Both the position numbers and the translations under genes were made by a program. Source: Fimbriimonadia bacterium (GTDB lineage: Bacteria; Armatimonadota; Fimbriimonadia; Fimbriimonadales; JABRVX01). Taken from it: a DNA stretch of 64,000 bases. Under the pieces are notes generated by a model that was not told the DNA's origin, did no database searches, and saw nothing but the letters and a program-made list of their open reading frames with translations. The DNA is taken from assembly GCA_039961735.1 (NCBI GenBank), contig JABRVX010000010.1, forward strand, positions 62,001-126,000, written 5' to 3'. Each line of letters begins with the position of its first letter. Positions within the stretch are counted from its first letter, which is position 1. Shown here in pieces: positions 16,080-50,261 of the stretch.

Positions 16080-17468
16080 TTACTGGCCGGTCCTCTTGCC
16101 CTGGTCCAGGGTCATCACGGTTCCGATCAGGGTCTTCTCGACCGACCCCGTGTCGCCGCGCTGCAGTTCTCGGATAGCCTGCGCGACCTCCTGTGCTTCC
16201 TGAGTGCGCCCTTGGCTCGCCAGCATCGCCTGTGTCTTCTGCAGTTCCATCATTGCCGTCGCCGTGGAGAGCTGCTGCGTACGCATTCCCATGATGGTCT
16301 TCTCGACGGCGCGCGATGCAGCTGCGGTCTGGATCTCCCTCGCCACCCGCGGGTCCGCCTCCAGAGGCACCTTCGCTCGGTCTGTGGTGAACTCCAGCAA
16401 GAGGTCGCCCTCTAGTGTCTCGCGCTTGCCGGTTACGCCGTCATCGTACGTTACGGTCGCCCGAACGACCCGATAGGTTCCTGCCGGATGGTTGGGGAAG
16501 TCCAACTCCAAGACCGTGCCGAGGGTGGTCCCGCGCTCGATGTCGGCTAGGTCCACTGTCACCTCCCTAAGCGACAGGTTTACGTTGTGTCCATAAACCT
16601 GCCTCGGCTGTACCCATCGCGCGAATCGAAGCTGTAGGTCCACGTTGGTGGCCACGGTGGTCATCAGCCGGTGAAGCTCCGTCCGAAACACTTCCGGCAG
16701 CAAGTCGGGTCGCGAGATGTAGTAGTAGTTCCCTCCGGCCCTTCGAGCGATGCCGGCGACCAGTTCCTCGTTGTACTCCGGCCCGAATCCGAGTGCCGTA
16801 ACCGTAATTCCGCGGTTCTTCATCTCCCCCACGAGTCCGACGATGGATGCGAAGTCGCGAATGCCGGCGGTAGGGTCACCATCCGACAGGAGAAGCAGCC
16901 GCTGCAGCCGGCCAGGCTCCGTCACGCTAGCGAGCTGCTGGGCGCCCAGTTGCAGGCCATCGTACAGATTGGTGGTGTTCCCGGCGTAAATCTGCTGGAT
17001 GTTCTGCTTGATGAGGTCCTTGTTCAGCACTCTGCGCGGGGGCATGACCACCTCCACCGTCTCTTCGAAAGTGACGATGCTGAGGATGTCGTTGGTGTCC
17101 AACAGGTCCACCACGTAGCCGCAGGCGCGTTTCACGTACTCTAGCGGCTCGCCCTCCATCGAACCGCTGCGGTCAATCACCAAGCATAGGTTGAGTGGTT
17201 GCCGGCCCGACCCGAGGGCTTCCGATGCGGTGAGGTCTATTAAGAACGCCTCCCGCGATAGCGCGTTGGCCAGAGTGACCGGGCGGCCTGGGATGACGCT
17301 CAGCGACAGCGCCTTCCCAGCGGGCACGCCGACCATGCGCGTCCGGTTAGGGTCCATCTGCACCTGCTGCGTGCGATTGGGGTCCGGAACGCCGATCTGC
17401 GTGCGGTTCGGATCGGGGAAGCCTCCGATCTGCGTCTTGTTCGGATCATTGGGGCCGGGAATGGTCAT
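16080..17468 (-). CDS. VWA-domain protein with repeated threonine motif
   Basis: A 462-residue protein. The N-terminus has four copies of a DPN[KR]T motif, with threonines at 12, 23, 33 and 43. A von Willebrand A domain follows from about residue 92, with an intact MIDAS (DRSGSMEG, D99-S103), T in NTTNLYDG and D in SDGDPTAG. After it comes a beta-rich region and then a C-terminal helical tail holding KTIMG and KTLIG. No signal peptide is present. It sits between FHA genes, so the threonines are plausible phosphosites recognised by those FHA domains. VWA plus PP2C recalls TerY-phosphatase-kinase triads, but here no kinase is present. Confidence 0.88.
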   Translation of the reverse strand: MTIPGPNDPNKTQIGGFPDPNRTQIGVPDPNRTQQVQMDPNRTRMVGVPAGKALSLSVIPGRPVTLANALSREAFLIDLTASEALGSGRQPLNLCLVIDRSGSMEGEPLEYVKRACGYVVDLLDTNDILSIVTFEETVEVVMPPRRVLNKDLIKQNIQQIYAGNTTNLYDGLQLGAQQLASVTEPGRLQRLLLLSDGDPTAGIRDFASIVGLVGEMKNRGITVTALGFGPEYNEELVAGIARRAGGNYYYISRPDLLPEVFRTELHRLMTTVATNVDLQLRFARWVQPRQVYGHNVNLSLREVTVDLADIERGTTLGTVLELDFPNHPAGTYRVVRATVTYDDGVTGKRETLEGDLLLEFTTDRAKVPLEADPRVAREIQTAAASRAVEKTIMGMRTQQLSTATAMMELQKTQAMLASQGRTQEAQEVAQAIRELQRGDTGSVEKTLIGTVMTLDQGKRTGQ

Positions 17469-17488
17469 GCCAAGAACCTCCAGCGTAG

Positions 17489-18910
17489 CTACTCTACCCG
17501 GAAGGACGTTTGACCGACGGTCACGACATCGCCGGGTGAAAGAACTTGTTGCGTAATCCGCACGCCGTTCACGAACGTTCCATTGGTGCTGCCCTCATCG
17601 TATATGACGAGATTTCCCCCCTCGATCTGCGCACGAGCATGCCTGCGACTCACCTGAGCATCGCCCGTCAGCGCGATAGCGTTCGATGGGTCTCGGCCAA
17701 TGCCGACGGGCGCAGGCCCGACCACGAACCTCGAACCAGCCAGCGGGCCATCCCAGGCCACCAGAGTGTTCGCCTGGACGCCAGCAGCCGTGACGGGTGT
17801 GGCTGGTTGCACGCGCGGAACGGGCGTACAAGCGCAATTGCCCGCCGCATCCTTCGTCTGCCCACAGAACTGGCACACGTTCGGAGGCGTCATCGAGACA
17901 GCGGCTTGCGTCGGCTTCTTCACGTCCACGGGCGCGCGAACGCCCTGACCAGCCTTCAGGCGGAACTGCAGCACGAACCGCCCGATCTGCAGCGCGTCAC
18001 CGTCTCTCAGGGTCACCGACTGCACAGGCATCCCGTTCACTAAGGTGCCTGCCCCGCTGTCCACCAGTACGTAGTCTCGTCCTACCCGATCAATCGCCAC
18101 GTGCTGGGGCGCCACCGCTGGATCGCCGAACAGGGGGATATCGGCGGTCTCCGATCTTCCGATGACGGTCCGCCTGGCATCCACCAGGTACTCCTTGCCT
18201 TCGTTTCGGCCCTGAAGCACTCGGATCCACGCGGACCGCATCAGAAACTCGACCAGCCCGATGAACATACCGATACCCGCACCCACGCACACCAACCCTA
18301 CCGCGCGGCTGAACCGTCCCACCTCCATCCTGCCAGGCTCTAGCTGCTGAGAGATCGGCTGGAAGATTGGCGCTGTTATCTCGAAAAGCACTCCGCCGAT
18401 GGCCCCCCCGAGCAGGCCACCGATCGCGGCCTGTCGCACTCGAGGCCAAGAGCGTGTCGCGATGGCCTGTCCCGCACCCAGAAGACAGCCGAAGACGCCC
18501 CACCCGATGGCCCGCGCCGTCAGGGCAACCAGAGGCGCAACCATGTACGCGCGCGAGGCGGCATAGGGCCGCATCATGGTGTCGTATACTCCTGCCGCAA
18601 AGTGCACGGACACGCCACCTGCGAGCAAACCGGCAACCGCACCCCACAGCAACCCTCGGCGAAGGTGATGCAACGAACCGACCGCCCAGCCGGACGCACC
18701 TGCCACCAGCGCGCCGACGAACATTCCGGTAGCGCCACCAAGCAGATTCTGGTGAAATAGGGAGCGGCGATACAGATCGGCCCACTCCGGTGCGGTCGGG
18801 TCTACACCGTGCGGCAGAATCTCGGCGGGTGAGAAGGGCTCGCTCACCAGCCAACCGAGCAGGCCGCCCAGTCCGCCGGCAATAAGGAGATAGAGGAGAC
18901 GCGATATCAC
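17489..18910 (-). CDS. Membrane protein with two cytoplasmic FHA domains
   Basis: A 473-residue protein. The first 230 residues hold about six hydrophobic, glycine-rich segments (for example LLYLLIAGGLGGLLGWLV). An FHA-like domain follows (about 250-325; VIGRSETADI, APQHVAI, GAGTLVNG), then a zinc-ribbon-like CQFCGQTKDAAGNCAC, and a second, canonical FHA domain (about 395-470; GIGRDPSN, SRRHARAQ, GSTNGTFVNG). GTG at 18910 is chosen because GGGGAG lies 8 bases upstream and the membrane segment starts immediately. The upstream in-frame ATGs lie inside palindromic repeats. It probably anchors phosphothreonine-dependent complexes at the membrane. Confidence 0.85.
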   Translation of the reverse strand: MISRLLYLLIAGGLGGLLGWLVSEPFSPAEILPHGVDPTAPEWADLYRRSLFHQNLLGGATGMFVGALVAGASGWAVGSLHHLRRGLLWGAVAGLLAGGVSVHFAAGVYDTMMRPYAASRAYMVAPLVALTARAIGWGVFGCLLGAGQAIATRSWPRVRQAAIGGLLGGAIGGVLFEITAPIFQPISQQLEPGRMEVGRFSRAVGLVCVGAGIGMFIGLVEFLMRSAWIRVLQGRNEGKEYLVDARRTVIGRSETADIPLFGDPAVAPQHVAIDRVGRDYVLVDSGAGTLVNGMPVQSVTLRDGDALQIGRFVLQFRLKAGQGVRAPVDVKKPTQAAVSMTPPNVCQFCGQTKDAAGNCACTPVPRVQPATPVTAAGVQANTLVAWDGPLAGSRFVVGPAPVGIGRDPSNAIALTGDAQVSRRHARAQIEGGNLVIYDEGSTNGTFVNGVRITQQVLSPGDVVTVGQTSFRVE

Positions 18911-18933
18911 GTGGACACTCCCCGCATCCCTAC

Positions 18934-18995
18934 CGCCATGCCGGCTCTGTCGAAGCATGCTCCCTTCTCCGCCATGCCGGCTCTGTCGAAGCATG
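18934..18995 (+). repeat. Two tandem degenerate REP-like copies
   Basis: The 26-base unit containing CGCCATGCCGGCTCTGTCGA occurs at 18934-18959 and 18970-18995, in direct orientation with a 36-base period. It differs from the main family at several bases. The copies fill most of the 102-base gap between two FHA genes and end about 24 bases from the downstream gene's GTG. Confidence 0.75.
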
Positions 18996-19012
18996 ACCCG
19001 CTCAAGAGCCGC

Positions 19013-20266
19013 TCACCCCGCATACCTCATCCGACACTCACCGATCTGCAGCGTATCACCATGCGAGACCTTCGTTCGGCTATCGATCTTCACACCGTTC
19101 ACATACGTTCCGTTCGTGCTTCCGAGGTCCTCGATCCACAAATCGCTGCCCTCCAGGGTCAGCTTTGCATGGCGCCGACTTACGGACGAGTCTTCGGCGA
19201 GACTGATATCGCAAGCGGGGTCCCTCCCCACTACCAGCTCAGGCGCAGTAAGGGGGAACACCTTGGCAGCGCACGGACCCGTCATCACCAGCAGTTGCGG
19301 CTGTCCGCTAGGTCCCGCAGCCGCCGGTGTCGGACCCAATGCGCATCCACAGCTACCATCCTGGGCCTTCTGCTGGCCGCAAAAAGGACACGCGCCCTCC
19401 GGCACCAGCGGTGCCTTTGGTGGCGGCTCGGAGCGAAAGCCGCTGGTATGCGGTGCACCAACGTTTTGTGCGTCGCCCACGTCGGACGGCGGCTGCACCC
19501 CGAGCCTCTGCATCATCTCGCGCATGCGCTTCTCGCGGGCCTGCACGAACCGGAACAGCCCATAGAGCGCTCCCACGCCTACCCCCAACGCGAGGGCGTA
19601 GGTCACGATTGCACCAATCGGAAAGCCTCCCGTGGGCTTGGCTGCAGTGCCCGTCGCGGCACCCGGCTCGCTACGCTCCTCTCCCACGATCGAGACCTCG
19701 TCGGGAATGCTGAAGGCGAGAACGGGCACAGGGTCCGAGCGGTCTGCGGTCAGGTCCAGTGTTAGCTTGCCCGACTTGCGTTCTTCTCCCTTCACCCGAT
19801 ACTCGACCTGAGCGCTCACCTCGCCCAGCCGCACCCTGTGGAACACCACTACTCCCTTCATATCGGGCGAGAGAAGCTCGCGCTTCTCACCTGCGGCATC
19901 CTTTAGGATCACCACTGCGCTCGCGACCGCCTTTCCTCGGTGTTCGACGGTCACCTTCACTTCCGCCGCGTACTTGAAGTCCTCGAGCTTGACAATGGCG
20001 GGCTTGCCGGAGAACGGTATCAGCGCAAGGTTGTTGCGCTCGACGTCACGTGCTACGAGAGTCTTGGGCGAGCCGGCAGGGATGGGGACGTCTGCGCGGC
20101 TTTGTCCCTTGATCAGATGCTTCGTGCCGAGCGGTCTTCCCTGGGCATCGTCGAACCATATCTCGAACTGCCCCTTGTGCGGGAGTTCAACCTGCACAGC
20201 AGAGACCCAGACCGGCCACGCAACTGCCACTAGGCAGAGGCACGAAGCCAGCGACCGACGGATCAC
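19013..20266 (-). CDS. Secreted/membrane protein with C-terminal FHA domain
   Basis: A 417-residue protein: a signal peptide (RRSLASCLCLVAVAWPVWVSA), about 220 residues of beta-rich extracytoplasmic sequence, one transmembrane helix near 245-265 (IGAIVTYALALGVGVGALYGLF), a basic cytoplasmic linker, a zinc-ribbon-like CPFCGQQKAQDGSCGC and a canonical FHA domain (VVGRDPACDI, SRRHAKL, GSTNGTYVNG). It could couple an outside signal to phosphothreonine binding inside. GTG at 20266 follows a strong AGGAGGTGA and lies 5 bases after the NnrE-NnrD stop. Longer in-frame starts run back through that gene and are rejected. Confidence 0.85.
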   Translation of the reverse strand: MIRRSLASCLCLVAVAWPVWVSAVQVELPHKGQFEIWFDDAQGRPLGTKHLIKGQSRADVPIPAGSPKTLVARDVERNNLALIPFSGKPAIVKLEDFKYAAEVKVTVEHRGKAVASAVVILKDAAGEKRELLSPDMKGVVVFHRVRLGEVSAQVEYRVKGEERKSGKLTLDLTADRSDPVPVLAFSIPDEVSIVGEERSEPGAATGTAAKPTGGFPIGAIVTYALALGVGVGALYGLFRFVQAREKRMREMMQRLGVQPPSDVGDAQNVGAPHTSGFRSEPPPKAPLVPEGACPFCGQQKAQDGSCGCALGPTPAAAGPSGQPQLLVMTGPCAAKVFPLTAPELVVGRDPACDISLAEDSSVSRRHAKLTLEGSDLWIEDLGSTNGTYVNGVKIDSRTKVSHGDTLQIGECRMRYAG

Positions 20267-20270
20267 AGAG

Positions 20271-21794
20271 TCACCTCCTGAGAAGCTCACCGACTGCGAG
20301 CGGCAGGGTTCGAGCGATGTCTCGTGCCGTGAACCCGACCTGCGCACCCAAACGGGCAAAGCACTGCTCTCCTGCCAAGCCATGCAAATAGGCTCCGAGC
20401 AGGGCCCCCTTCTGAGGGCTTCCGGCGAGATGCGTGAGCGCGGCAATCGCGCCCGTCAGCACGTCGCCGCTTCCCGCGGTGCCGAGGCCGGGACATCCCG
20501 CTGCGTTCACAAAACACTTGCCGCTCGACTCGCACACGATGGTGTATGCACCCTTGAGTAGGATTGTAGCGCGATACTTGGCTTCAGCGTCCCTGGCACA
20601 CTCGAAGCGTCGTTCCACCACATCGGCCGACGTGGTTCCGAGCAGCCGAGCCATCTCTCCGGCGTGCGGCGTAAGCACGAGCGGCGCGGAACGATTCACC
20701 GGTCCGATCTCTGCCAGGCAGTTCAGGCCGTCGGCATCCAGCACGACGGGCTTGTCGGCTCGCGTGAGCAGTGTCTGAACTGCCTCTCGCGCAGGCGGCT
20801 GCGTTGTCAGGCCCGGTCCGAGTGCCAGCACGTCGAAGCGGTCGAGCATTGCGAGTACGGTGTCCGCTCCTTCGGGTGTAAGGCAGCCCATTCCCGCGTC
20901 GGGCAGCGGCACGGTCATCAGCTCCGGGAAATACCCTGCGACGATGGGATGAACGCTCTCGGGAACGGCGCAGGTGGCGAGGCCCGCACCAGCGCACAGC
21001 GCTCCCAATCCTGTGAGCGCCACCGACCCAGGCATCGTCGTCGAGCCGCCGATGCAGAGTACGCTCCCCCGAGTTCGCTTGTGTGCCGCGGGCGAAAGAC
21101 GCGGCAGCATCCCGCGGTACCACTCGGCCGGCGCCATCTCGGGCGCGCCCTCTGCGGCCTTCTCGGGTAGCTCGATCCCGATGTCCACGACGGCGAGCCG
21201 GCCAATCACATCGGGCCCGCTCCCCTGAAACATCCCTAGCTTCGGATGCTGCACTGTGATTGTCTCGTCCGCCGTGACGAAGGCGGGGCCAATCCTCCCG
21301 GTGGTTGCGTCCAGTCCAGACGGAACATCGAGGGCGAAGATAGTGGACTGGTCACGTGCAGAAGAGATCGTGTGGATCGCCCGGTCCGCCGCGGGGTCCA
21401 TGGAGGCGCGCTTCGGGTCATAGCCGGTTCCGTACACTGCATCTACGATTGCATCGAACCCTTGGAGCCCCGCGCCCGGTTCCTCCACCCGCACCAGCGA
21501 CTCAGCTTGGTGCCACATCGCCTGACAATCCGGCGAGCACTCGTGCCGCTCGGCGACCGGGAATACGGTTACGTCCCTCCCCATCTCGGCAAGGCGCCGC
21601 GCCACCACCCAGCCATCCCCACCGTTATTGCCTCGCCCGCTCACCACGGCCACACGCCGACGCGAGTCATCCTTCGCCACCAGTTCGGCCATGTGCGTGC
21701 CCGCGCGCTCCATCAGCTCCAAGGAGGGCACGCCGAGGTCCTCGATGGTGTGCCGGTCCGCGGCTCGCATCTGCTCGGCGGTCAGTACTTTCAT
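20271..21794 (-). CDS. nnr: Bifunctional NAD(P)H-hydrate repair enzyme (epimerase + dehydratase)
   Basis: A 507-residue fusion that repairs damaged NAD(P)H. Residues 1 to about 215 are the NnrE (YjeF_N) epimerase, with VVSGRGNNGGDGWVVARRL and DAVYGTG. Residues 225-507 are the NnrD dehydratase, with HKRTRGSVLCIGGS, LGPGLTTQ, LDADGLNCL, LTPHAGEMARLLG and GTAGSGDVLTGAIAAL. All are family signatures. ATG 21794 is the natural start of the YjeF_N domain (MKVLTAEQMRAAD); the longer frame is rejected. It is the first gene of the FHA operon and is separated from the next gene by only 4 bases, an unexpected pairing of a metabolic housekeeping enzyme with signalling genes. Confidence 0.93.
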   Translation of the reverse strand: MKVLTAEQMRAADRHTIEDLGVPSLELMERAGTHMAELVAKDDSRRRVAVVSGRGNNGGDGWVVARRLAEMGRDVTVFPVAERHECSPDCQAMWHQAESLVRVEEPGAGLQGFDAIVDAVYGTGYDPKRASMDPAADRAIHTISSARDQSTIFALDVPSGLDATTGRIGPAFVTADETITVQHPKLGMFQGSGPDVIGRLAVVDIGIELPEKAAEGAPEMAPAEWYRGMLPRLSPAAHKRTRGSVLCIGGSTTMPGSVALTGLGALCAGAGLATCAVPESVHPIVAGYFPELMTVPLPDAGMGCLTPEGADTVLAMLDRFDVLALGPGLTTQPPAREAVQTLLTRADKPVVLDADGLNCLAEIGPVNRSAPLVLTPHAGEMARLLGTTSADVVERRFECARDAEAKYRATILLKGAYTIVCESSGKCFVNAAGCPGLGTAGSGDVLTGAIAALTHLAGSPQKGALLGAYLHGLAGEQCFARLGAQVGFTARDIARTLPLAVGELLRR

Positions 21795-30756: not shown

Positions 30757-33700
30757 TCATAGCCCGTACAGCTTCGCGACGCGGTCGTCGATCTCCGCCT
30801 CCCACTCTTCGCAGCCGACGCCGCGGGCGTCGAGACAGCGTTGGGCAAGTCGAGCGATTGCATCTCGCGCCGGTGCAGGAGATCGGGCGATGGGCAGGTG
30901 CGATACGAACTGCTCGAAGAAGCGCAGGCGGCCTGCCTTCGCCTCGTCACCGATAACCGTGAGCCGGCGAGAGCAGTATTCCCACATGGGAGAGGAGTTG
31001 AGGACCCCAAGCAAATAGAGATCATCCCCGCCGACGAAGTAAGCGGTATTCGTGATATGGACGCCCTCAGCGTCGTAGGTGAATCGGGGCACCTTGGCAA
31101 TGTCTGGGAACACGATCTTGGGCTGTTCGAAGGCGGGGTAGTAGTCCACGGTATCCTGAATCTCGTACCACTCGTAGCTGCCGGGCTTTCTGCCCGGCCA
31201 ATGGCCTTGCTTGGCTTCGTCCCAGTCTCGCGGGCGCGGCTCGAGCTCCTTCCTGAACTGCGCCAGGTGGTCCATGATAGCTGGGTACCGACGCGGGTCG
31301 GTGCCGTGTCGCATGAAGATCAGCCAGCGGTCTTTGCGTTCGATGCGCCAGCGGCGGATGTCGTCGCCGACGGCGAGCGGCTTGATGATCTCCTCGCTCT
31401 TCGGGTCCGCCGCGATCAGCTCCGCCCGCTTGGCTCCGTCAATCACGAACGCCGCATTGCAGCCGGTCAGGATACCGCGGTAGATGCGCCCCTGTACGTA
31501 CTCGCCGAGCGGAATGCCCGCGCTCTCCATCTTGTCTAGCATGGCGAGCGTGGCCGAATCGGTCAAGCGCCAGTCCTCGCCCCGGATAGCGTCCGGTGGC
31601 AATACGTGCCCGTCCCGGCGGATGATCTGAAGCACATCGGGATAGGGCTCTTCGAGCGATTTCACCTGCGTGAAGCGAGGTGTCGTGGTTTCGCCGTCTC
31701 GGCGATGCTCTGCCGGGGTGCCGTCCGGCGAGACGCCGGAACCACCTTTTTGCGCGATGAAGATCATGGGGAAGGTAGACGATGTCTCGAAGACCGGAAG
31801 CTCCCCGAAGTCCGTGATGCTGAGGATGCGTGCGTTCTCTGCCATGTACTTGCGCAGGTTGGCGCCGTACTTTGCCCGGAACCACTTGTTGGATGAGATG
31901 AACGCCAGCATGCCGCCCGGACGCAGAATCTCCATCGAGCGCAGGTAGAAGTAGCAGTAGAGGTCTGCGGTGCCGCAGTAGGTTTCGGGGTACACCTTCT
32001 GCAGCGCGGGCTTCAGGTGCTTGATCAGCTCCTGCCGAACGTACGGTGGATTGGCCACCACGATATCGAAGCCACCGCCGTCTGCTAGGAACACCTCGGC
32101 GAAGTCAACGAGCCAGTCGAAGCCGTCCTGCCCAGTGGTAGGGCGCACCCAGGTCGCTATCTCTGTCCGCGCATCACCAATGCGCTGTTTGAGCTCCTGC
32201 CGTGTCACCTCGTCCGTCGGGTGCGCGTACTCCGCCTTGAGTGCCGCGAAGCGCTGAATCTGCTCTTGACGGAACATGTCCTTGTTCACGACTCTCTCTT
32301 CCGGCACTGGCTGCGGCCCGAGCACCGAGTCTCCGACTTCGATCTTATAGTCCAAGTTCGGCAGGGGTTCGGGCTTGTCGTCCTCGAAGTCCACGGCCAG
32401 GGAGAGCCAGAGGCGGAGTCGCGCGATGCTGACCGCGAAGGGGTCTATGTCCACCCCGTACAGGTTCTCTTGGATGATCTCCAGCTTGCGCCGGTAGTCG
32501 CTCACGGGGTCCACGTTCTTTGCTGCGAACAGGCATCTCCGAAGGGCTATCAGCTCCTGCAACATGCCGAGCAGGTATGCGCCGGAGCCGCAGGCCGGGT
32601 CGCACGCCTTCACGGTTCGCAGTTTCTCCAGCACCGCTTCCGGGTCGGCGAGAAGGGTCGCATCGTGTTCATCCACGAACTTCTCAATGGCCTCGCCCCC
32701 GCCCAGGTACCCCTTCAGCGCCTCGCGGCACATGAAGGAGACGACGGGGCGCGGCGTGTAGTAGCTTCCGCTCTCGTGCCTTCCGGTTACCAGCTCTTCG
32801 AAGATCTTGCCGAGCATCTCCGGGTCCACGGCTACGTCCACGTCCAGCGGCGTGTTTTCCATGACCGTGAAATTGAAGGAGCGGAACAGCCCACCATGGT
32901 CCGCTAGGATGTTTTGGAACACTGTGTCGGGGACGACGATGCCGGCTACGTCTAGCACTGCGTCCCGCTCGAACAAGCCGCCGTTAAGGTAGGGGACCTT
33001 GCCGAGGATGGGTTCGAGTTTGTGGCCGCCGCCGATGCCGTTGGGGCAGTTCAGGCCGCTGAAGAAGAGATACTCTAGGACGCTGTAGAAGGTTGGGGTG
33101 TGTCGGTGGGGTTTCTGCAGGTACCTCTGGTAGAGGGTGTGGAGGTAGTCGTTGCTTCCGTTCAGCTCCAGCCACCCCATCTTCTCGATGAACGCGACGA
33201 ACATGAGGCGGTTGAAGAGGGACTGGACGAAGAGGTGCTTCTGCTCGTCCGAGCCGGGGTGTACGACCATCGCCTTGGTCGCTTCGAACACCTCGCGGTA
33301 GCGGGAGTAGAATTCCTTCGTCAGCTTCTCGACGTCCCAGGCCTCGTGCCAGCGGTCCTGGTTGCTCCAGGCGAGATGGGGGAGATTGCGCGTGAGGAGC
33401 GTCCGAGCGGAGTGGGGATCGGACCATCCGAAGGTGCGAAGCTTGGCGTTGGCCGGTTTGTCGCCGGCGAAGTGACCGAGGGTGAATGTTGCCTGCTCGC
33501 TGCGGCACACGAACAGGATGTTGTCGTGCGGCCAGGTGACGTGTCCGTGCGTCTGCCTGGCTTTCTCCGCAACCTTCGTTAGGATCCTGCGAAGGTCGCT
33601 ACGGCGCAGTCTGTTGGTCCCGAAGTCCACGAGAAAGATGCCCCAGCGCTGGTTGGAGTCGAGCTTCTGCACTGCGGCGAGGGACTGCACGCCTGGGATG

Positions 33701-33843
33701 TCCGTGATGCCGTAGAGCGGAGCAACCCCGGTGAAGGTGCTCCACTCGGGGGTCGGCCAGTCGAGTTCGGGGGCATCGTGAAATAGGCGAGCGAGGCCAT
33801 CGAAGCCCGCGACGGAAGCGAGTTGCTGTGGAGTGATTGCCAT
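30757..33843 (-). CDS. N6-adenine DNA methyltransferase with recognition domain (type IIG/ISP-like)
   Basis: A 1028-residue protein of the Eco57I/PglX-like class. Motif I is DPACGSGAYLLGML (D415), the acidic loop is GVDIDP (about 463) and motif IV is NPPY (598-601), typical of N6-adenine methyltransferases. Residues 1 to about 340 form a helical and beta N-terminal region without an obvious PD-(D/E)XK nuclease, though RWGIFLVDFG near 67 is notable. The last 290 residues, ending in GVLNSSPMWEYCSR and VSHLPI, look like a TaqI/HsdS-type target-recognition domain. It lies 10 bases after the PLD-helicase gene on the same strand. The pair resembles a type ISP restriction enzyme split in two. Confidence 0.85.
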   Translation of the reverse strand: MAITPQQLASVAGFDGLARLFHDAPELDWPTPEWSTFTGVAPLYGITDIPGVQSLAAVQKLDSNQRWGIFLVDFGTNRLRRSDLRRILTKVAEKARQTHGHVTWPHDNILFVCRSEQATFTLGHFAGDKPANAKLRTFGWSDPHSARTLLTRNLPHLAWSNQDRWHEAWDVEKLTKEFYSRYREVFEATKAMVVHPGSDEQKHLFVQSLFNRLMFVAFIEKMGWLELNGSNDYLHTLYQRYLQKPHRHTPTFYSVLEYLFFSGLNCPNGIGGGHKLEPILGKVPYLNGGLFERDAVLDVAGIVVPDTVFQNILADHGGLFRSFNFTVMENTPLDVDVAVDPEMLGKIFEELVTGRHESGSYYTPRPVVSFMCREALKGYLGGGEAIEKFVDEHDATLLADPEAVLEKLRTVKACDPACGSGAYLLGMLQELIALRRCLFAAKNVDPVSDYRRKLEIIQENLYGVDIDPFAVSIARLRLWLSLAVDFEDDKPEPLPNLDYKIEVGDSVLGPQPVPEERVVNKDMFRQEQIQRFAALKAEYAHPTDEVTRQELKQRIGDARTEIATWVRPTTGQDGFDWLVDFAEVFLADGGGFDIVVANPPYVRQELIKHLKPALQKVYPETYCGTADLYCYFYLRSMEILRPGGMLAFISSNKWFRAKYGANLRKYMAENARILSITDFGELPVFETSSTFPMIFIAQKGGSGVSPDGTPAEHRRDGETTTPRFTQVKSLEEPYPDVLQIIRRDGHVLPPDAIRGEDWRLTDSATLAMLDKMESAGIPLGEYVQGRIYRGILTGCNAAFVIDGAKRAELIAADPKSEEIIKPLAVGDDIRRWRIERKDRWLIFMRHGTDPRRYPAIMDHLAQFRKELEPRPRDWDEAKQGHWPGRKPGSYEWYEIQDTVDYYPAFEQPKIVFPDIAKVPRFTYDAEGVHITNTAYFVGGDDLYLLGVLNSSPMWEYCSRRLTVIGDEAKAGRLRFFEQFVSHLPIARSPAPARDAIARLAQRCLDARGVGCEEWEAEIDDRVAKLYGL

Positions 33844-33853
33844 GCTCCTTGGC

Positions 33854-36800
33854 CTATACCTCCATCCAACAGATCAGCTCGTCTTTCAGCGTCTGCGGTG
33901 TTTGGGCTTCGAACCGGAGTCGGGCAAGCACTTCGGATTCGACGAGCTTGCGCAGACGGTCTCGTTCAGCCCCCGGCATCTTGACCTCCCGCGGCGTGCC
34001 TTGGGCGCATGCGATGGCCTGGTGGATTGCCTCGATGTCCTCCTCGACCTGACCGGTTTCCCGGTCAACCAGGAACCATCGCACATCGAAGACCGGTGAC
34101 TCTCCGTCGGGGCCTGGCTCCGTACCCGTCGGGATGCGGTAGGCGAGGAAGAGCTTGGAGCCTCCTCTGGGCTTTCCCGAGTAGATGCGGTTCGGATAGG
34201 ACACACTTTGGTTCCAGACCTCGGGGTACTTCTGCTCTAGCTGGTGCGCCACGAGGCGTAGCTGCTCCTCTTTGGACATCGTGAAGTCGCCGAGGTTCTG
34301 GTAGAAGTCCATCGCCTTGAAGTCGTCTTCAGCAGTGAGAACGGGGGCTTCGATGCCGAGAGTGCGGTTGATGGCAATCAGCTTGCCGGTGACCCTTTCG
34401 TAGAGGTGCAGCAACCGTCTGAGCTCGTCTGGCGGCAGGAAGTTGTACACGTACACCTTGTCGTAGTCCACCGGCTTGGACGGGTCCATGCGCCTGTCCA
34501 CGCGACCGATGCGCTGCATGAGCCGCACCGGGTTCCAGTGCAGGTCGTAGTTGACGATGATGTTGCAGTCCTGTAGGTTCAAGCCCTCGCTGAGCACGTC
34601 CGTGGAGATGAGCACTCTGATCGGGTCGGCCAGCGCGGCCTCGAGGTCTTTTTCGTTATCGCAGTTGTAGTAGGGGGCGAAGCGTGCGATGATGCCTTCG
34701 CGATTGGCCACGTTGCGACCACTGTCCACTTCGACGATGCTGTCGTTGGGGAATGCGTTCCTGAGGTGTGTTTCCAGGTAGCGCGCCGTATCCTTGAACT
34801 CGGTGAAGATGACCACCTTGTCCTTGTGCAGCCGCGGAGTTGCGCGGATTTTCTTGACGAGGGCCGCGAGCTTATCGTCGTTCTCCACCCGGACGGTGGC
34901 GTATAGACCGCCGAGGATGTCTGTCAGCACTTCCGCGTCGCTGATGAGTTGCTCGTACCAGCGGGCTTCGTTGGCTCCGAACTCCTGAACGTCTTTCAGC
35001 AATCCCTGCAGCTTCTTTTCCTCATAGGAAGTCAGGGGTAAGTCGTCTTCCTCTTCGTCATCTTCTGTTCGGATGTCCATTCGCTCGGCGCGGTGCCTCT
35101 CGAGTGTCTGGGCAATTTGCATATGGCGTTCACGCCACTCCTGGTATGCATCGGGCAGCAGTTCCTTCAGGACAACGACATGCTTGAGCAGCAGGTCCTC
35201 GACGCTGGCCTCGAAGGCTTTCTGGCTCGATTCGAGTCGCTTGAGGAGCATGGTCCGGATCAGTCCAGTGACATTCGATTGGTCCTGAAGCAGGGACGGG
35301 TCCTGGTCCTGTTCCTTGAAGCGTTCCGTTTCGTAGATCACGAGCTTCAGCGTGCCGTGATCGCGGTCGAACGCGTTGTCGATCTCCGGCAGCAGCTTGC
35401 CGTAGACCTTGGAGAGCGAGTACTCGATTACCTCAGGCTTCTCGCGCTGGGGGAACTTAACGCTTGCGTCTTCCTGGGTCTCAAGGCTCTTCACGTACTT
35501 CCGCGAACGCTGCACCAGGACATGTTTCAGAAACTCGAGACCTTCGCCGCGCTCCACTAGGTCGAACGGGAATTCGTCGTCGGCAAGACGCTCTTCCACG
35601 TCTTTGAAACGATTACGGAGATGAGGAACACCGTAGGATTGGAAGTACCTTTGGTTGTCCTGCGCATAGTAGTTCAGCATCTGATAGAGGTCCATCACGG
35701 AGTTGTTAATGGGGGTCGCGGTCAGCAGGAATAGCCGCTTGCCTTTGACCAGCCGCTTCAGTTTGAGACTACGGTTCCGGTACGGAGTTCGGAAGTGGTG
35801 AGCCTCGTCCACGATGACGGTGTCATAGCGTTGCCTAAGCTTCTCGACATCCGCGTCTGTAACACCTCCCGGCCGCCCGAGGTCAGTGTGGGCGATCACT
35901 CGGATATCGTCCGTGAACTTGCCAAAGTCATCCGGGAAGTACTTGTCTAGCCACCTAGCCCACACCGATGGGATTGCGGCTTTCGGCGCGACGATCAGCA
36001 CCTTGTGCTTTTCCATGCGCGCCCGCTCGATGAGCATCAGGGCAACGAACGTCTTGCCCAAGCCGACGCCGTCGCACAGGAGCCCCCCGCCGTGGGCGGC
36101 GGCCATATGCATCAGGTCGTGGTAGGCATCGCGCTGGTACTTGGCGAGCACCGTGGTGTACAACTTGCTCTCGTTGACCTCCCAACCGGACTGGTCGGTC
36201 TCGTGGGCGAGGAAGTACTCCCGCATGGACTGAACGTAGAGCTCGAAGGGCAGGTACTCACGGACGTGGGGCTCGATGGCCGCAAGCATCTCTTCAGTGA
36301 TGTCCTCGGCCTCATTCCACGCTTGCTGATACCACTCCCCGAGTTCACGAAGCTGTGCGGTGTCGCTCGTGAACAGGTTGAGCTCAAGGTTCTGGGTCAG
36401 GCCGGGGCGGGTGAGGTTGGAGGACCCGATCAGGCCGTGGTCCACCACTCCTCCCGTGACGAATCGGTACGCCTTTGCATGGAACTTCGCTCGTGTGTAG
36501 ATCCTGGCCCGGATGTGGCCCGAGGCAAGCGCCGCCCGGATGGCCGCGAGGCCGTCCAGCGCCTTCCAATCGTCCATTTCCTGTCTCGCCTCGATGCCAT
36601 TCAGCCTGCGGTCGCGTAAGGCCCGAGCCATCTCTGCCCGTGTCTGGCGGGAGATGTCGCCCCCTGCAAGGAGACGCAAACCCTCTAGCGGCTGCCAAGC
36701 CCCGTCCAAGTCCAGCAACGCCCCTATCTCGAAGAAGCCGGTGGCGATGTCCACCCTCTTGGCCGTCGCCATCAGGCGGCGGACGGCGTCAAGGACGAGA

Positions 36801-36865
36801 TTGTCGGTCCGGTTGTCGATCAGGGTCTTCAGTACGCCATTTGGTTTCTGTTCATCGGCGCGCAT
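33854..36865 (-). CDS. PLD-nuclease / SNF2-type helicase fusion (defence ATPase)
   Basis: A 1003-residue protein. Residues 1-190 form a phospholipase-D-type nuclease domain with one HxK motif (H129, K131) and GSSN (147-150), as in NgoFVII/BfiI-like restriction nucleases. From about 240 a SNF2-like SF2 helicase follows: Walker A DGVGLGKT (265-272), DEAH (353-356), LTATP (381-385), and the C-terminal motifs STDVLSEGLNLQ and QRIGRVDR. A long insert separates the two helicase halves. ATG 36865 is chosen; a GTG at 36928 would add 21 unremarkable residues. Together with the methyltransferase gene it forms a restriction-like module. DrmD/DISARM helicases are related, but the other DISARM genes are missing. 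Confidence 0.85.
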   Translation of the reverse strand: MRADEQKPNGVLKTLIDNRTDNLVLDAVRRLMATAKRVDIATGFFEIGALLDLDGAWQPLEGLRLLAGGDISRQTRAEMARALRDRRLNGIEARQEMDDWKALDGLAAIRAALASGHIRARIYTRAKFHAKAYRFVTGGVVDHGLIGSSNLTRPGLTQNLELNLFTSDTAQLRELGEWYQQAWNEAEDITEEMLAAIEPHVREYLPFELYVQSMREYFLAHETDQSGWEVNESKLYTTVLAKYQRDAYHDLMHMAAAHGGGLLCDGVGLGKTFVALMLIERARMEKHKVLIVAPKAAIPSVWARWLDKYFPDDFGKFTDDIRVIAHTDLGRPGGVTDADVEKLRQRYDTVIVDEAHHFRTPYRNRSLKLKRLVKGKRLFLLTATPINNSVMDLYQMLNYYAQDNQRYFQSYGVPHLRNRFKDVEERLADDEFPFDLVERGEGLEFLKHVLVQRSRKYVKSLETQEDASVKFPQREKPEVIEYSLSKVYGKLLPEIDNAFDRDHGTLKLVIYETERFKEQDQDPSLLQDQSNVTGLIRTMLLKRLESSQKAFEASVEDLLLKHVVVLKELLPDAYQEWRERHMQIAQTLERHRAERMDIRTEDDEEEDDLPLTSYEEKKLQGLLKDVQEFGANEARWYEQLISDAEVLTDILGGLYATVRVENDDKLAALVKKIRATPRLHKDKVVIFTEFKDTARYLETHLRNAFPNDSIVEVDSGRNVANREGIIARFAPYYNCDNEKDLEAALADPIRVLISTDVLSEGLNLQDCNIIVNYDLHWNPVRLMQRIGRVDRRMDPSKPVDYDKVYVYNFLPPDELRRLLHLYERVTGKLIAINRTLGIEAPVLTAEDDFKAMDFYQNLGDFTMSKEEQLRLVAHQLEQKYPEVWNQSVSYPNRIYSGKPRGGSKLFLAYRIPTGTEPGPDGESPVFDVRWFLVDRETGQVEEDIEAIHQAIACAQGTPREVKMPGAERDRLRKLVESEVLARLRFEAQTPQTLKDELICWMEV

Positions 36866-36929
36866 ACAAGCCTCTGCCTGCCCCGTTTGGTGTGCACCTT
36901 TGCGGATTCGGGCTCTGCTGCTCCACACC

Positions 36930-45243: not shown

Positions 45244-45362
45244 GAAGTCGTGGTGTCAACTCGCGATCCGGCCGGAAAACTGCAGAACCCGCATATACAA
45301 TATGATCGCTGATCGGCGTTGGCCGGTCGCGCATGTTGCGTTGATTGAAGGATGGTATCAAC

Positions 45363-46130
45363 ATGAGGGCGTATGTCCCTTTGCTTGTAGTAGTCTGGAT
45401 GGTGTCGGCCGGCTCGGCGCTGGCTATCGAAAGAAACGCCTTTCTGAATCACCCGGCCACCTCGACCAAGCAACTCGTAGAGCAGGTCAAGAACGACCCG
45501 GTCGTTGCGGACCGCTACATGCGGCACTACGCAATGACCAAAAATGAGCTTGTCCGCTACCTCTCCGGCCTCCGTGTTTCCGTGCTGCGCATGGGCGGCG
45601 AGTACCGAGTCTACTCCTGCCTTCCTTCGGGCGTGATTCGCTCCCGCGTGCTCGCACTCAAGCCGGGAACGCGCGTGTGGGAAGACAGCAAGGGCATCCC
45701 CATCCTCAAGATGTCGTGCGGGAACCCGATGTCTTGGAACGTATCGGCGTTCAAGGAGCCGACCACCGTGCCATCCATTCTAGAGCCGCTCATCCTGCTG
45801 GATAGCGCCCTGCGCGAGGCCACGCTGTTCGAGACCACGGCCGAGCCGGCCGAGCCCGTTGCCGAGGACCCCGAAGAAGTGGCGCTGCTGATCCCGTCAA
45901 TCCCCGAAATGAGCTTCGGCGAGTGGCCGGAAGTGGCCACCGCCCAGGTCACCCCGGCGGTCCCGCTTCTACCCGGCAGCGGGTTCAACCTGGGGTTCCT
46001 GGGCTCCCTGCTCGTGGTACCGTTCCTGGACCTCGGAGGCGGCGAACCCATTCCCGAGCCCAGCATGCTGGTCGGCACGGGGGGAGCGCTGTTTCTGCTC
46101 GGCCTCGGTATGCGCAGGCGACGCATGTAG
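45363..46130 (+). CDS. PEP-CTERM sorted surface protein
   Basis: A 255-residue exported protein. An N-terminal signal peptide (LLVVVWMVSAGSALA) is followed by about 200 residues of unknown fold. The C-terminus is a textbook PEP-CTERM signal: PEPSMLVG, a hydrophobic stretch (GGALFLLGLG) and a basic tail (MRRRRM). Such proteins are processed by exosortase and linked to exopolysaccharide-rich surfaces. ATG 45363 is preferred because AAGGAT lies upstream and the signal peptide begins there; a TTG at 45345 is in frame. No exosortase gene is in the window. The middle part has no recognised domain. Confidence 0.8.
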   Translation: MRAYVPLLVVVWMVSAGSALAIERNAFLNHPATSTKQLVEQVKNDPVVADRYMRHYAMTKNELVRYLSGLRVSVLRMGGEYRVYSCLPSGVIRSRVLALKPGTRVWEDSKGIPILKMSCGNPMSWNVSAFKEPTTVPSILEPLILLDSALREATLFETTAEPAEPVAEDPEEVALLIPSIPEMSFGEWPEVATAQVTPAVPLLPGSGFNLGFLGSLLVVPFLDLGGGEPIPEPSMLVGTGGALFLLGLGMRRRRM

Positions 46131-46923: not shown

Positions 46924-48288
46924 GTGATCACCCGGCAGCCCGCCTCCCTTCCGCAGGAGGAAGTTGACGCGTCCAAGCTCGGCGATATCCTGATCGCCTC
47001 GGGCGCGCTCACGCCAGCGGAGCTACGCCAAGCCGAACGCCGAAGCCGCACGAGCGGAGAGCGCCTGTCGCGTGCCATCTTGGAGACCGGAGCGGCCAGC
47101 CCGAGCCAGATCATACAGGCCCTCGGGCTGCTGTATGGACTTGAGATCGCACGCTTCGACCAATGCCCGCTAGATGCGGCGGCCACGGCCTGTGTGCCCG
47201 AGGACCTGGCCCGCCAACTCGAGGTCATTCCGCTCCGAAGACTCGGCTCGACGCTCTCCTGTGCGATATTCGACCCCGGCGACACCGAAGCGCTCGAAGC
47301 GCTCGAGAACGTCTCCGATTGTGCCATCGCACTCCAAGTCGCGACGCCCGCGGAGATCGCTGCTGAACTGGACCGCCGCTATGGAATCGGCGGAAGCGGT
47401 CCGCAACAGGTACTGCCCGTGCGGCCGGGCGACATGTTCCTCCATTACAGGCTCAGCTCCGTGCGCTGGGAGGAACCTGGCGTTGTGTGGTTTGAGGCCG
47501 ATGACACCCGGCTTCTGCGCAGAGTTACCGTAGCTGTACTGTGCCCTGACCTGGATGACACTCTGGCCCGACGCGCTGGGAGGGTATTGGAGCACTCGCT
47601 CTGGCTGGCTCGCTTCCCGCACCGCAACGTGCTGACCATTCACGACGTCGGCGAAGCCGATGGGCTGAAGTTTATCGTGAGTGAGGCGGTCCACGGCGAG
47701 ACGCTTCGTGAGCGCCTGCAGCGGGAGCGGAAATTTTCTCTGGCCGCCACCTGCGAGATAGGCCTTCAGTTGTGCGACGGGCTTCGCCACCTACACCGCC
47801 ACCAGCTTGTTTACAAGGCCCTAAGCCCCTCGAACTGCGCGTTGCTGAGCGGAGACGAGGTCAAGCTGACACATCTCGGCCTCGGCTTCGAGCCACACGA
47901 GGTGGGCGACGAGGTCCGTCTCCTCGAAGCCGACGACTTCCGCTACCGCGCCCCGGAATACATAGCGGGCGAGCCGCTCGACCCGCGGGCCGACATCTTC
48001 TCGCTGGGCACGCTGCTCTACGAGATGGCGGCAGGGCGCCCCGCCTTTCCAGGTGCGGGCGTGGCGGCAGTGACGCGCCTGATCCTGGAGGGCGGACTGG
48101 CCGCATGTGAGGAGCTTCCGCCTGCACTCAACCGAATCATCTTAAGGGCCTGTGCCGCAGAGCGACACGGGCGTTATCGAGACGCCCTCTCGCTGGCCGA
48201 GGACCTTCTGGCCCAACACTGGCCGGAGGTCGCGGCCGGCGCCGGGGTCTCCCGCTACCTGGCCGCAGTCGAGCGGGAGACCAAGTAG
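46924..48288 (+). CDS. MshEN (GspE N-terminal) domain fused to a pseudokinase
   Basis: A 454-residue protein. Residues about 18-155 match the N-terminal region of GspE/PilB/MshE ATPases: KLGDILIASGALT and LSRAILETGAASPSQIIQAL resemble the paired c-di-GMP-binding MshEN motifs, followed by the usual LEVIPLRRLGSTLSCAIFDPGD segment. Residues about 175-440 have a Ser/Thr kinase fold: HRNVLTIHDVGEADG, RAPEYIAG (APE at 343-345) and DIFSLGTLLYEMAAGRPAF. The catalytic residues are lost: the VAIK lysine is L206, HRD is YKA (297-299) and DFG is HLG (317-319). It is probably a signal-sensing scaffold rather than a kinase. GTG 46924 follows GATAAT by 6 nt. A MinD-like gene follows after 18 bases. Confidence 0.85.
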   Translation: MITRQPASLPQEEVDASKLGDILIASGALTPAELRQAERRSRTSGERLSRAILETGAASPSQIIQALGLLYGLEIARFDQCPLDAAATACVPEDLARQLEVIPLRRLGSTLSCAIFDPGDTEALEALENVSDCAIALQVATPAEIAAELDRRYGIGGSGPQQVLPVRPGDMFLHYRLSSVRWEEPGVVWFEADDTRLLRRVTVAVLCPDLDDTLARRAGRVLEHSLWLARFPHRNVLTIHDVGEADGLKFIVSEAVHGETLRERLQRERKFSLAATCEIGLQLCDGLRHLHRHQLVYKALSPSNCALLSGDEVKLTHLGLGFEPHEVGDEVRLLEADDFRYRAPEYIAGEPLDPRADIFSLGTLLYEMAAGRPAFPGAGVAAVTRLILEGGLAACEELPPALNRIILRACAAERHGRYRDALSLAEDLLAQHWPEVAAGAGVSRYLAAVERETK

Positions 48289-48306
48289 AGCCGTGAGGTG
48301 AGAGCG

Positions 48307-49122
48307 ATGACAAGAGCCTATACCATCGTCGTTACGGGCGGCCGCACCGGGCTCGGCAGAACCCAAGTGGCCGCCAACCTGGCCATCGCGTTGCAGCAAC
48401 AAGACCGCTCGACCGTGCTCGTGGACCTGGACATCGGGCAGGACAACCTCCGGAGCGTTCTTGGCATCAGCTCCCCCCGCTCCCTTGCGGAGGCTTTGGG
48501 CGGACGAGCCAGGCTCCAGGACCTTCTTGCCGAAGGTCCTGGAGGCATTGCCGTCCTGCGTGGCGGGGCCGAACTCGAACAGGTACCGGCCCTCACGTCG
48601 GCACAGACACGTAACCTCCTCAGCGAGCTCGTTCGCATGGAGAGTCTGTTCAACTTCATCGTCCTCGACGCCGGCATCGGTTCGTCTCTAAGCGCCCTTA
48701 CGTTCGTCCGAAGTGCCCATGAAGCACTGACGCTCACCGCACCCGATTCGGACGACATGGCCGCAGCGTACTCGGTGCTGAAAATGGTAAGCCGCAGGAG
48801 CCCAGGGACTTCCATCTCCCTGTGCGTCAACTTCGCTGCGAGCGAGAACGATGCTATTGCGGCGGAGCGGCTCGTCGGTGTAGCGCGCTCGTTTCTCCGC
48901 GCAGAACTGAGAGTGGCAGGCGTTCTTCGTGAGGATGCCGCTGTGGCTCTGGCAGAACGTGCCGAGCGCCCCGTGCTGCTCACCTATCCGACCTGCATGT
49001 TCGCAAGAGACATCGTGAAGCTGTCCTCGTTCTGGACAAGGCAGCGCGCCGCCGAGCCGGCACTCGGACTGGCAGAACGGCTCGCCGTCGAGCTGTCGCC
49101 TTCTCTTAGTGCGGTTAGCTGA
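48307..49122 (+). CDS. MinD/FlhG-like ParA-family protein with altered Walker A
   Basis: A 271-residue ParA/MinD-type protein. The deviant Walker A, normally GKGGVGKT, reads GRTGLGRT (12-19): both lysines are arginines (R13, R18). VDLDIGQDNLRSVLGI and FIVLDAGIGSSLSAL match the switch and Walker B regions, so the fold is kept. ATP binding or hydrolysis is probably changed or lost. ATG 48307 is preferred because GAGGTGA lies 7 bases upstream; GTG 48298 adds three residues. It directly follows the pseudokinase gene and probably acts with it, perhaps in polar placement of pili, flagella or secretion machinery (inference). Confidence 0.8.
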   Translation: MTRAYTIVVTGGRTGLGRTQVAANLAIALQQQDRSTVLVDLDIGQDNLRSVLGISSPRSLAEALGGRARLQDLLAEGPGGIAVLRGGAELEQVPALTSAQTRNLLSELVRMESLFNFIVLDAGIGSSLSALTFVRSAHEALTLTAPDSDDMAAAYSVLKMVSRRSPGTSISLCVNFAASENDAIAAERLVGVARSFLRAELRVAGVLREDAAVALAERAERPVLLTYPTCMFARDIVKLSSFWTRQRAAEPALGLAERLAVELSPSLSAVS

Positions 49123-49355
49123 GACGCTACAGGCCACGGGCTGAGGCATGGAATCTCTCGACGGGAAGTCTGAGACAGCAGCCTTAGCGAGGGGTGGTAC
49201 ACTTCGGATGCCGCCCTGCTGCTCTCGAGCAGTGCGACCATCTTCTCCGACCACAGCGACATGCACACGCCGCCTTCGCTCACGATAGCCGAGCAGTCAG
49301 AAGTTGCCGGACGTATGACCAGACGAAGCGACCGCATTCAGAGGCGACCACTCTG

Positions 49356-50261
49356 GTGACACCTCCGGTCAGCATCGTCATCACCTGCTTCAACTACGAG
49401 CGCTTCCTGGCCGATGCCATTCTCACCGCCCGGTACCAGACCCTGAACGGAGCCGAGATCGTTGTGGTGGACGACGGAAGCACCGACGACTCCGCAGCGG
49501 CGGCGAAGGCGTTGGGTGTGCGAGTCGTGCAGCAGGAGAACCGTGGTCTCGCCGCCGCTCGAAACCGAGGCATCGCCGAAACCTCCGCCGACTGGATTGC
49601 CTTTCTAGACGCCGACGATCTGTGGGAGACGCATAAGCTCGAACGTCAGTATGCGGCCGTCTGCGACGAGCAAGGCATCGTACTGTGCCACACGGACTGC
49701 GTCTTCCTGCACGGCGACGGCACCGAAGATCGCAGGCCGCGCAAGCTCGAACCGCCCGAGCGAGGATGCCCATTCGCGCATCTGCTGCCCACGAACCGCA
49801 TCTTTTCGAGCTCGGCGATGGTACGTCGCGATGCCGTCCTGCGGGCCGGCGGCTTCGACGAAAACCTCGACGCGTACGAGGACGTGGACCTCTGGTTCCG
49901 GATGGCTGCCCACGGTGACTTCCTGTTCCTGCCCGACCGGCTCATCAAGTACCGCCTTCACGGGGCGAACACCAGCTCGCTGGGACGGGAGTTCTGGGAG
50001 GGCTCGTTCACGGTTCTGCAGGATCGCGTGCTCGCCAACTGGGATGTACTCTCGGCACGGTTTGAGCCGAGAGAGAAACGACGATACCGTCGCTTGCTGC
50101 GTCGCCTTATAGCGCTCTGCTATTCGGGCCAGGGCAAGAGCTTGGCACGCGAGGGGCGCTGGGCTGGTGCCTTGAGTTCACACTGGCGGGCGCTAGGTAG
50201 TTATCCGTGGCTCCCACGGCTCTATGGCAGGTTCTTGCGCACGCTTCTCCTTTGTCGCTAG
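49356..50261 (+). CDS. GT2 family glycosyltransferase
   Basis: A 301-residue family 2 glycosyltransferase. VSIVITCFNYERFLADAI, VVVDDGSTDDS and FLDADDLWETHKLERQ form the nucleotide-sugar domain with its DXD-like motif, and DAYEDVDLWFRMA supplies the ED motif near residue 175. A basic C-terminal tail may touch the membrane. GTG 49356 is chosen; AGAGGCGA lies upstream. The stop of a 32-codon ORF (49261-49359) overlaps the GTG, which could couple translation. It probably builds a surface polysaccharide. Confidence 0.87.
   Translation: MTPPVSIVITCFNYERFLADAILTARYQTLNGAEIVVVDDGSTDDSAAAAKALGVRVVQQENRGLAAARNRGIAETSADWIAFLDADDLWETHKLERQYAAVCDEQGIVLCHTDCVFLHGDGTEDRRPRKLEPPERGCPFAHLLPTNRIFSSSAMVRRDAVLRAGGFDENLDAYEDVDLWFRMAAHGDFLFLPDRLIKYRLHGANTSSLGREFWEGSFTVLQDRVLANWDVLSARFEPREKRRYRRLLRRLIALCYSGQGKSLAREGRWAGALSSHWRALGSYPWLPRLYGRFLRTLLLCR

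Follow-up and report, generated by a model that had tools for sequence, protein, structure and literature searches.

The gene at positions 46924..48288 (+) of the window, by which the whole stretch of 64,000 nucleotides analysed here is meant, encodes a 454-aa protein that joins an MshEN domain to a kinase-like domain, and it is followed directly by a gene for an FlhG/FleN/MinD-type ATPase. With somewhat better than even confidence, this pair is read as a second, diverged copy of a two-gene module conserved in one order, in the canonical form of which an FlhG-type ATPase would be controlled by an adaptor that combines a c-di-GMP receptor with a pseudokinase. Motility and surface attachment are steered by c-di-GMP, and a conserved gene pair of receptor, pseudokinase and ATPase offers a testable physical link from c-di-GMP to how the cell is organised in space.

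The reading frame has a GTG start with an in-frame stop just upstream, its 454 codons are open, and full-length relatives of the product exist in the order. An earlier note had read a GspE/MshE-like N-terminus and a C-terminal kinase fold from the letters, and both are borne out by Pfam and by a search of solved structures. In the profile searches proposed in that note both domains exceed the Pfam cut-off: MshEN (PF05157) matches residues 71-157 (47134..47394, +), the C-terminal subdomain, with 54.8 bits against a cut-off of 23.1 (E 1e-14), and Pkinase (PF00069) matches residues 227-382 with 78.9 bits against 31.7 (E 5e-22). Among solved structures, MshE, PilB and PilF were best over residues 11-156 and Stk1 and PknB over 191-435. 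The structure prediction that the note had also proposed displays the kinase fold. The AlphaFold2 model, built from the protein and 14 kinase relatives, is for that reason poor in the MshEN_C part; its kinase part has pLDDT values mostly of 85-98, and it displays four N-terminal helices like those of MshEN_N. With this model, Foldseek placed Stk1, PknB and PknA at the top (E 1e-18 to 1e-20).

The pseudokinase domain covers approximately residues 170-432 (47431..48219, +), as placed by the AlphaFold model and Foldseek. In an alignment with active kinases, the beta-3 lysine is replaced by A204, HRD by Y297-K298-A299 and DFG by H317-L318-G319, so that A204, A299 and H317 occupy the three positions (beta-3 Lys, HRD Asp, DFG Asp) by which an active Ser/Thr kinase is judged. 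Furthermore, a lysine is changed to S301, the alpha-C glutamate column holds H224, and the glycine-rich loop is missing. The loss of the VAIK lysine, HRD (YKA) and DFG (HLG) claimed earlier is thereby upheld for the whole triad, with one correction: the lysine column is A204 (RRVTVA versus RRVAIK), two residues away from the L206 that had been named. It is hardly credible that the protein is an active kinase using unorthodox catalytic residues. The fold is kept, as are P302, N304, G319, PE344-345 of APE, D357 and R417, of which APE, D357 and R417, along with the fold, could be cited in favour of activity. However, all three catalytic residues and the glycine-rich loop are gone, and in pseudokinases without all three motifs ATP binding is nearly always missing (PMC12599244). 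The sequences of this protein and of 15 out of 15 other pseudokinase-form relatives compared support their assignment as pseudokinases.

The c-di-GMP motif, as given in Wang et al. 2016 (PMC5013675), is RLGxx(LVI)(LVI)xxG(LVI)(LVI)xxxxLxxxLxxQ, present two times. Both motifs are degenerate in the protein encoded in the window when aligned by column with 15 relatives. Motif I at residues 18-41 (46975..47046, +) reads KLGDILIASGALTPAELRQAERRS, with L changed to E38 and Q to S41, while motif II at residues 47-70 (47062..47133, +) reads RLSRAILETGAASPSQIIQALGLL, with G changed to S49 and Q to L70. The NCBIfam model c-di-GMP_motif (NF053729), for which a 53-residue double motif above the curated cut-off with both Gln and the motif Gly/Leu retained was taken as the standard, gives 35.7 bits, below the cut-off of 38. 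The four replacements correspond to the contact residues L29, Q32, G40 and Q61 of VcMshE. In XpsE, the loss of binding is ascribed to changes including L29, G40 and Q61 (PMC5013675), and these three positions are also hit here. Given the lost contacts, the score below the cut-off and the shared XpsE positions, c-di-GMP control of this protein is unlikely as judged from its residues, and the copy is probably a diverged, c-di-GMP-blind version. The reading of the earlier note, which makes this very protein a pseudokinase scaffold under c-di-GMP control, is improbable: the MshEN fold is plainly present and relatives carry an intact motif, but the protein has other residues in place of both ribose/phosphate-binding Gln, a guanine-stacking Leu and a motif Gly. 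The control by c-di-GMP that it proposed is therefore transferred to the relatives, for which their sequences speak; contact residues missing from all homologues, named there as grounds for refutation, were not found, since the relatives keep the motif.

One of these relatives is encoded in the same genome (G000, contig C62, 22011-23318), a second MshEN-kinase protein with an intact c-di-GMP motif (65.8 bits) and an intact adjoining MinD-type ATPase. Besides this paralogue, full-length relatives were found in 13 more genomes of the order and in G208, which belongs to another family of the phylum. Each of the 15 pseudokinase-form relatives compared has both motif Gln retained and the K/HRD/DFG triad broken, with the beta-3 Lys still present in G208, and the NCBIfam motif scores of canonical relatives (n=5) are 62.8-70.4 bits. 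The kinase of canonical relatives is even more degraded than that in the window, and the activation segment is shortened in most of the canonical clade. Since a search with the canonical-family profile reaches PknE/PknB, together with MshE/PilB, this C-terminal part is by its profile still a kinase relative. MshEN-only relatives of about 190-240 aa, with the kinase part absent, occur in no fewer than 17 further genomes of the order; at the 16 such loci examined (L081-L096), the second motif Gln is kept in 15 of the 15 read and the first is often Lys, Ser or Ala, a pattern that suggests altered ligand binding. When a set of genome contigs and a plasmid collection were searched with the protein from the window, only kinase-domain relatives were matched, and the contig scan yielded no MshEN fusion.

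The paralogous module at G000:C62:22008-24179 (L065:6000-8183) has the full c-di-GMP motif, a more degraded pseudokinase and a convergent DivIVA-family gene behind it. The G208 protein (L097 / L133:7022-9166) is a 714-aa MshEN-pseudokinase in which HRD and DFG are lost and the beta-3 Lys is present; its kinase part is followed by a putative transmembrane segment and by additional C-terminal sequence, and a MinD-type ATPase gene lies directly upstream.

The partner gene in the window (48298..49122, +; 274 aa) begins 9 bp downstream and was assigned from its best solved relatives, FlhG 4rz2 (E 2.6e-31) and FleN, and from MinD models. It belongs to the MinD/FlhG sequence family, yet scores below the strict MinD equivalog cut-offs. 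An FlhG/MinD-type ATPase gene comes immediately after the MshEN gene in 30 of the 30 relatives of the order examined, at gaps of -4 to 36 bp, and in G208 it stands directly before the MshEN gene, in reversed order. As a control, the four other MshEN genes of the genome itself (ORFs of 567-627 aa) have no ATPase neighbour within the 3.2 kb fetched. The Walker A segment of the partner (48334..48363, +) is degenerate, TGGRTGLGRT versus TSGKGGVGK(T/S) in 26 of 30 canonical partners when the four top classes are counted. Where the deviant Walker A pattern KGGxGK(T/S) is expected, GGRTGLGRT is found, the Walker A lysines are lost, and from this sequence the enzyme would be weak or inactive. Moreover, both C-terminal tails are missing from the pair, which in canonical proteins are FWxRLFGR-like in the adaptor and LxxRLRSxFG-like in the ATPase of pseudokinase-form pairs. 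The canonical tails are short and resemble the membrane-targeting tail of MinD; as their hydrophobic moments are only moderate, it is this resemblance that points to a possible membrane role.

Beyond the pair, shared ORFs at module loci are mostly antisense shadows. The only recurring neighbour is a convergent DivIVA-family gene, at 5 of 22 loci (called by Pfam at the canonical locus of G000 and by similarity at the others), which is absent at the copy in the window. The family-2 glycosyltransferase gene downstream (49194..50261, +), the location of which is not conserved, probably lies outside the module. Two genes upstream of the MshEN-pseudokinase gene, a PEP-CTERM-like protein with a DUF6777-like stretch is encoded (45345-46130, +). 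Elsewhere in the window, a gene for an Eco57I-type methylase (1028 aa) adjoins one for an SNF2/ResIII helicase with a PLD nuclease domain (1024 aa) at 30757-36928 (-), an arrangement suggestive of a restriction or defence system. At 16080-20446 (-), genes for two FHA-domain proteins, of which one has two FHA stretches, together with a VWA protein form a possible phospho-threonine signalling cluster.

Regarding the origin and fate of the diverged copy, it is rather unlikely that the pair is simply decaying, as a duplicate or old copy heading for loss without a function of its own. Four separate functional elements of two genes are lost, the branch of the ATPase is very long, and the copy occurs in one genome only, with no close full-length orthologue among 291 genomes of the phylum. 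On the other hand, frames of 454 and 274 codons are both open with gene-like GC3, the kinase core, the APE helix, the invariant W433 and the 9-bp spacing are preserved, and the Pkinase score of 78.9 bits is higher than those of the canonical copies scored. It is possible, if doubtful, that the pair did not arise by duplication of the canonical module and is an older or transferred G208-type copy, an origin that would be compatible with the adaptor mechanism. G208 provides the best full-length match outside the genome (E 4.9e-46), and the kinase tree places the copy between the canonical pseudokinases and a group of G208 with active kinases. However, long branches meet at this point and the placement is insecure, and the adaptor-first gene order is that of the module of the order, whereas G208 is ATPase-first. 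The ATPase tree likewise has long branches without secure placement.

The genome context fits a role of the module in placing either a surface machine or the site of division. Module-bearing genomes carry 5-11 GGDEF genes each, and the flagellar protein FliP is present in 9 of 9 genomes. A classical MinCD system was rejected because MinC, searched in 9 genomes, is absent. At E 1e-10, the only MinD/FlhG-type ATPase is that of the module in G000 (two copies), G002, G006, G065 and G070. No flhF above the cut-off was found in the genomes of the order searched; in G000, flhA is followed by an flhF-like gene without flhG there, where the FlhF match is below the cut-off and the call was made from translations. 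G208 possesses an flhF gene with an adjacent MinD-type gene, an flhF-flhG pair, and has its module at a separate locus. Strict identity of the module ATPase with flagellar FlhG was not taken as proven, given that both occur in G208 and that flhF did not exceed the cut-off in the order. The flhF-like gene of G000 (C20; L144:1174-2193) encodes a divergent FlhF-like GTPase, directly after an flhA-like gene and before a secretin-like gene; among 8 genomes of the order tested, a third SRP-type GTPase (E 1e-10) was observed in G000 only.

In the favoured reading of an adaptor with its ATPase, the MshEN receptor of the canonical module, fused to a dead kinase, would serve as an adaptor for the adjoining FlhG/MinD-type ATPase. 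Binding of c-di-GMP to MshEN may alter how the adaptor, via its kinase-like fold, holds the ATPase or carries it to the membrane, and this could in turn determine the location or the frequency at which a surface machine (flagellum, pilus) or the division site is established. The scaffold proposed in the earlier note is plausible and is sharpened by the invariant ATPase gene beside it. The diverged pair retains both folds but no longer has the c-di-GMP contacts, the catalytic triad, the lysines of Walker A or either tail. If working at all, it might partner or compete with the canonical pair of its genome, independently of c-di-GMP and with poor hydrolysis. A bolder form of this proposal, in which a lineage-specific module runs from c-di-GMP through the pseudokinase adaptor to a positioning ATPase and its c-di-GMP-blind, hydrolysis-deficient second copy is a built-in antagonist that forms heteromers, is unlikely. 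Several observations stand against the adaptor reading. MshEN-only relatives also adjoin the ATPase in at least 16 genomes, so that the pseudokinase is dispensable for pairing, and the first motif Gln often differs there; the canonical flhF-flhG pair that G208 has in addition to its module implies that the module ATPase cannot be equated with FlhG in every genome; the hydrophobic moments of the tails are moderate; and the diverged copy has no orthologue that could show selection. The natural series of dead kinase, more degraded kinase and absent kinase allows the contribution of the dead domain to be asked.

Compared with known systems, the domain fold is that of MshEN receptors (VcMshE, PilB, NfrB; NF053729; PF05157), and canonical relatives retain the two 24-residue motifs, although the contact residues are lost in the copy in the window. 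The output of those receptors is a secretion or pilus ATPase, whereas here it is a dead kinase adjoining an FlhG/MinD-type ATPase. The same two domains in one protein were already listed as fusions of MshEN with Ser/Thr protein kinases by Wang et al. 2016 (PMC5013675), the available portion of which names only such kinases and mentions neither catalytic loss nor ATPase pairing. The view of the earlier note that the architecture is undescribed thus fails for the fusion and seems to hold for the dead-kinase form: in open-licence papers searched for MshEN with pseudokinase or FlhG, neither that form nor the ATPase pairing was found, and the text of a review of bacterial pseudokinases (PMC12599244) leaves MshE, GMP and FlhG unmentioned. 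The families ActPs1-3, GLW, CP1, DLHK and DYD of that review, compared by description only, likewise have a Ser/Thr-kinase-like fold with catalytic residues lost. To the bacterial pseudokinases the module contributes a conserved one for which a candidate partner is evident. This partner is clearly related in sequence to FlhG/FleN/MinD ATPases (4rz2, 5j1j, 1hyq); its gene accompanies an MshEN adaptor instead of flhF or minC, and in the window its Walker A is degenerate. Direct c-di-GMP receptors for FlhG/MinD-type ATPases are few, FleQ-FleN and BcsE-BcsQ being those met in the literature search. BcsE, which senses c-di-GMP and consists of degenerate enzyme domains (REC-GGDEF), recruits the MinD-like protein BcsQ to the membrane by binding it (PMC7439463). 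Although its sensor domains are unrelated, the system serves cellulose secretion and a kinase fold is absent, BcsE-BcsQ, a sensor built partly of dead enzyme domains together with a MinD-like ATPase, is the nearest worked-out parallel to the module.
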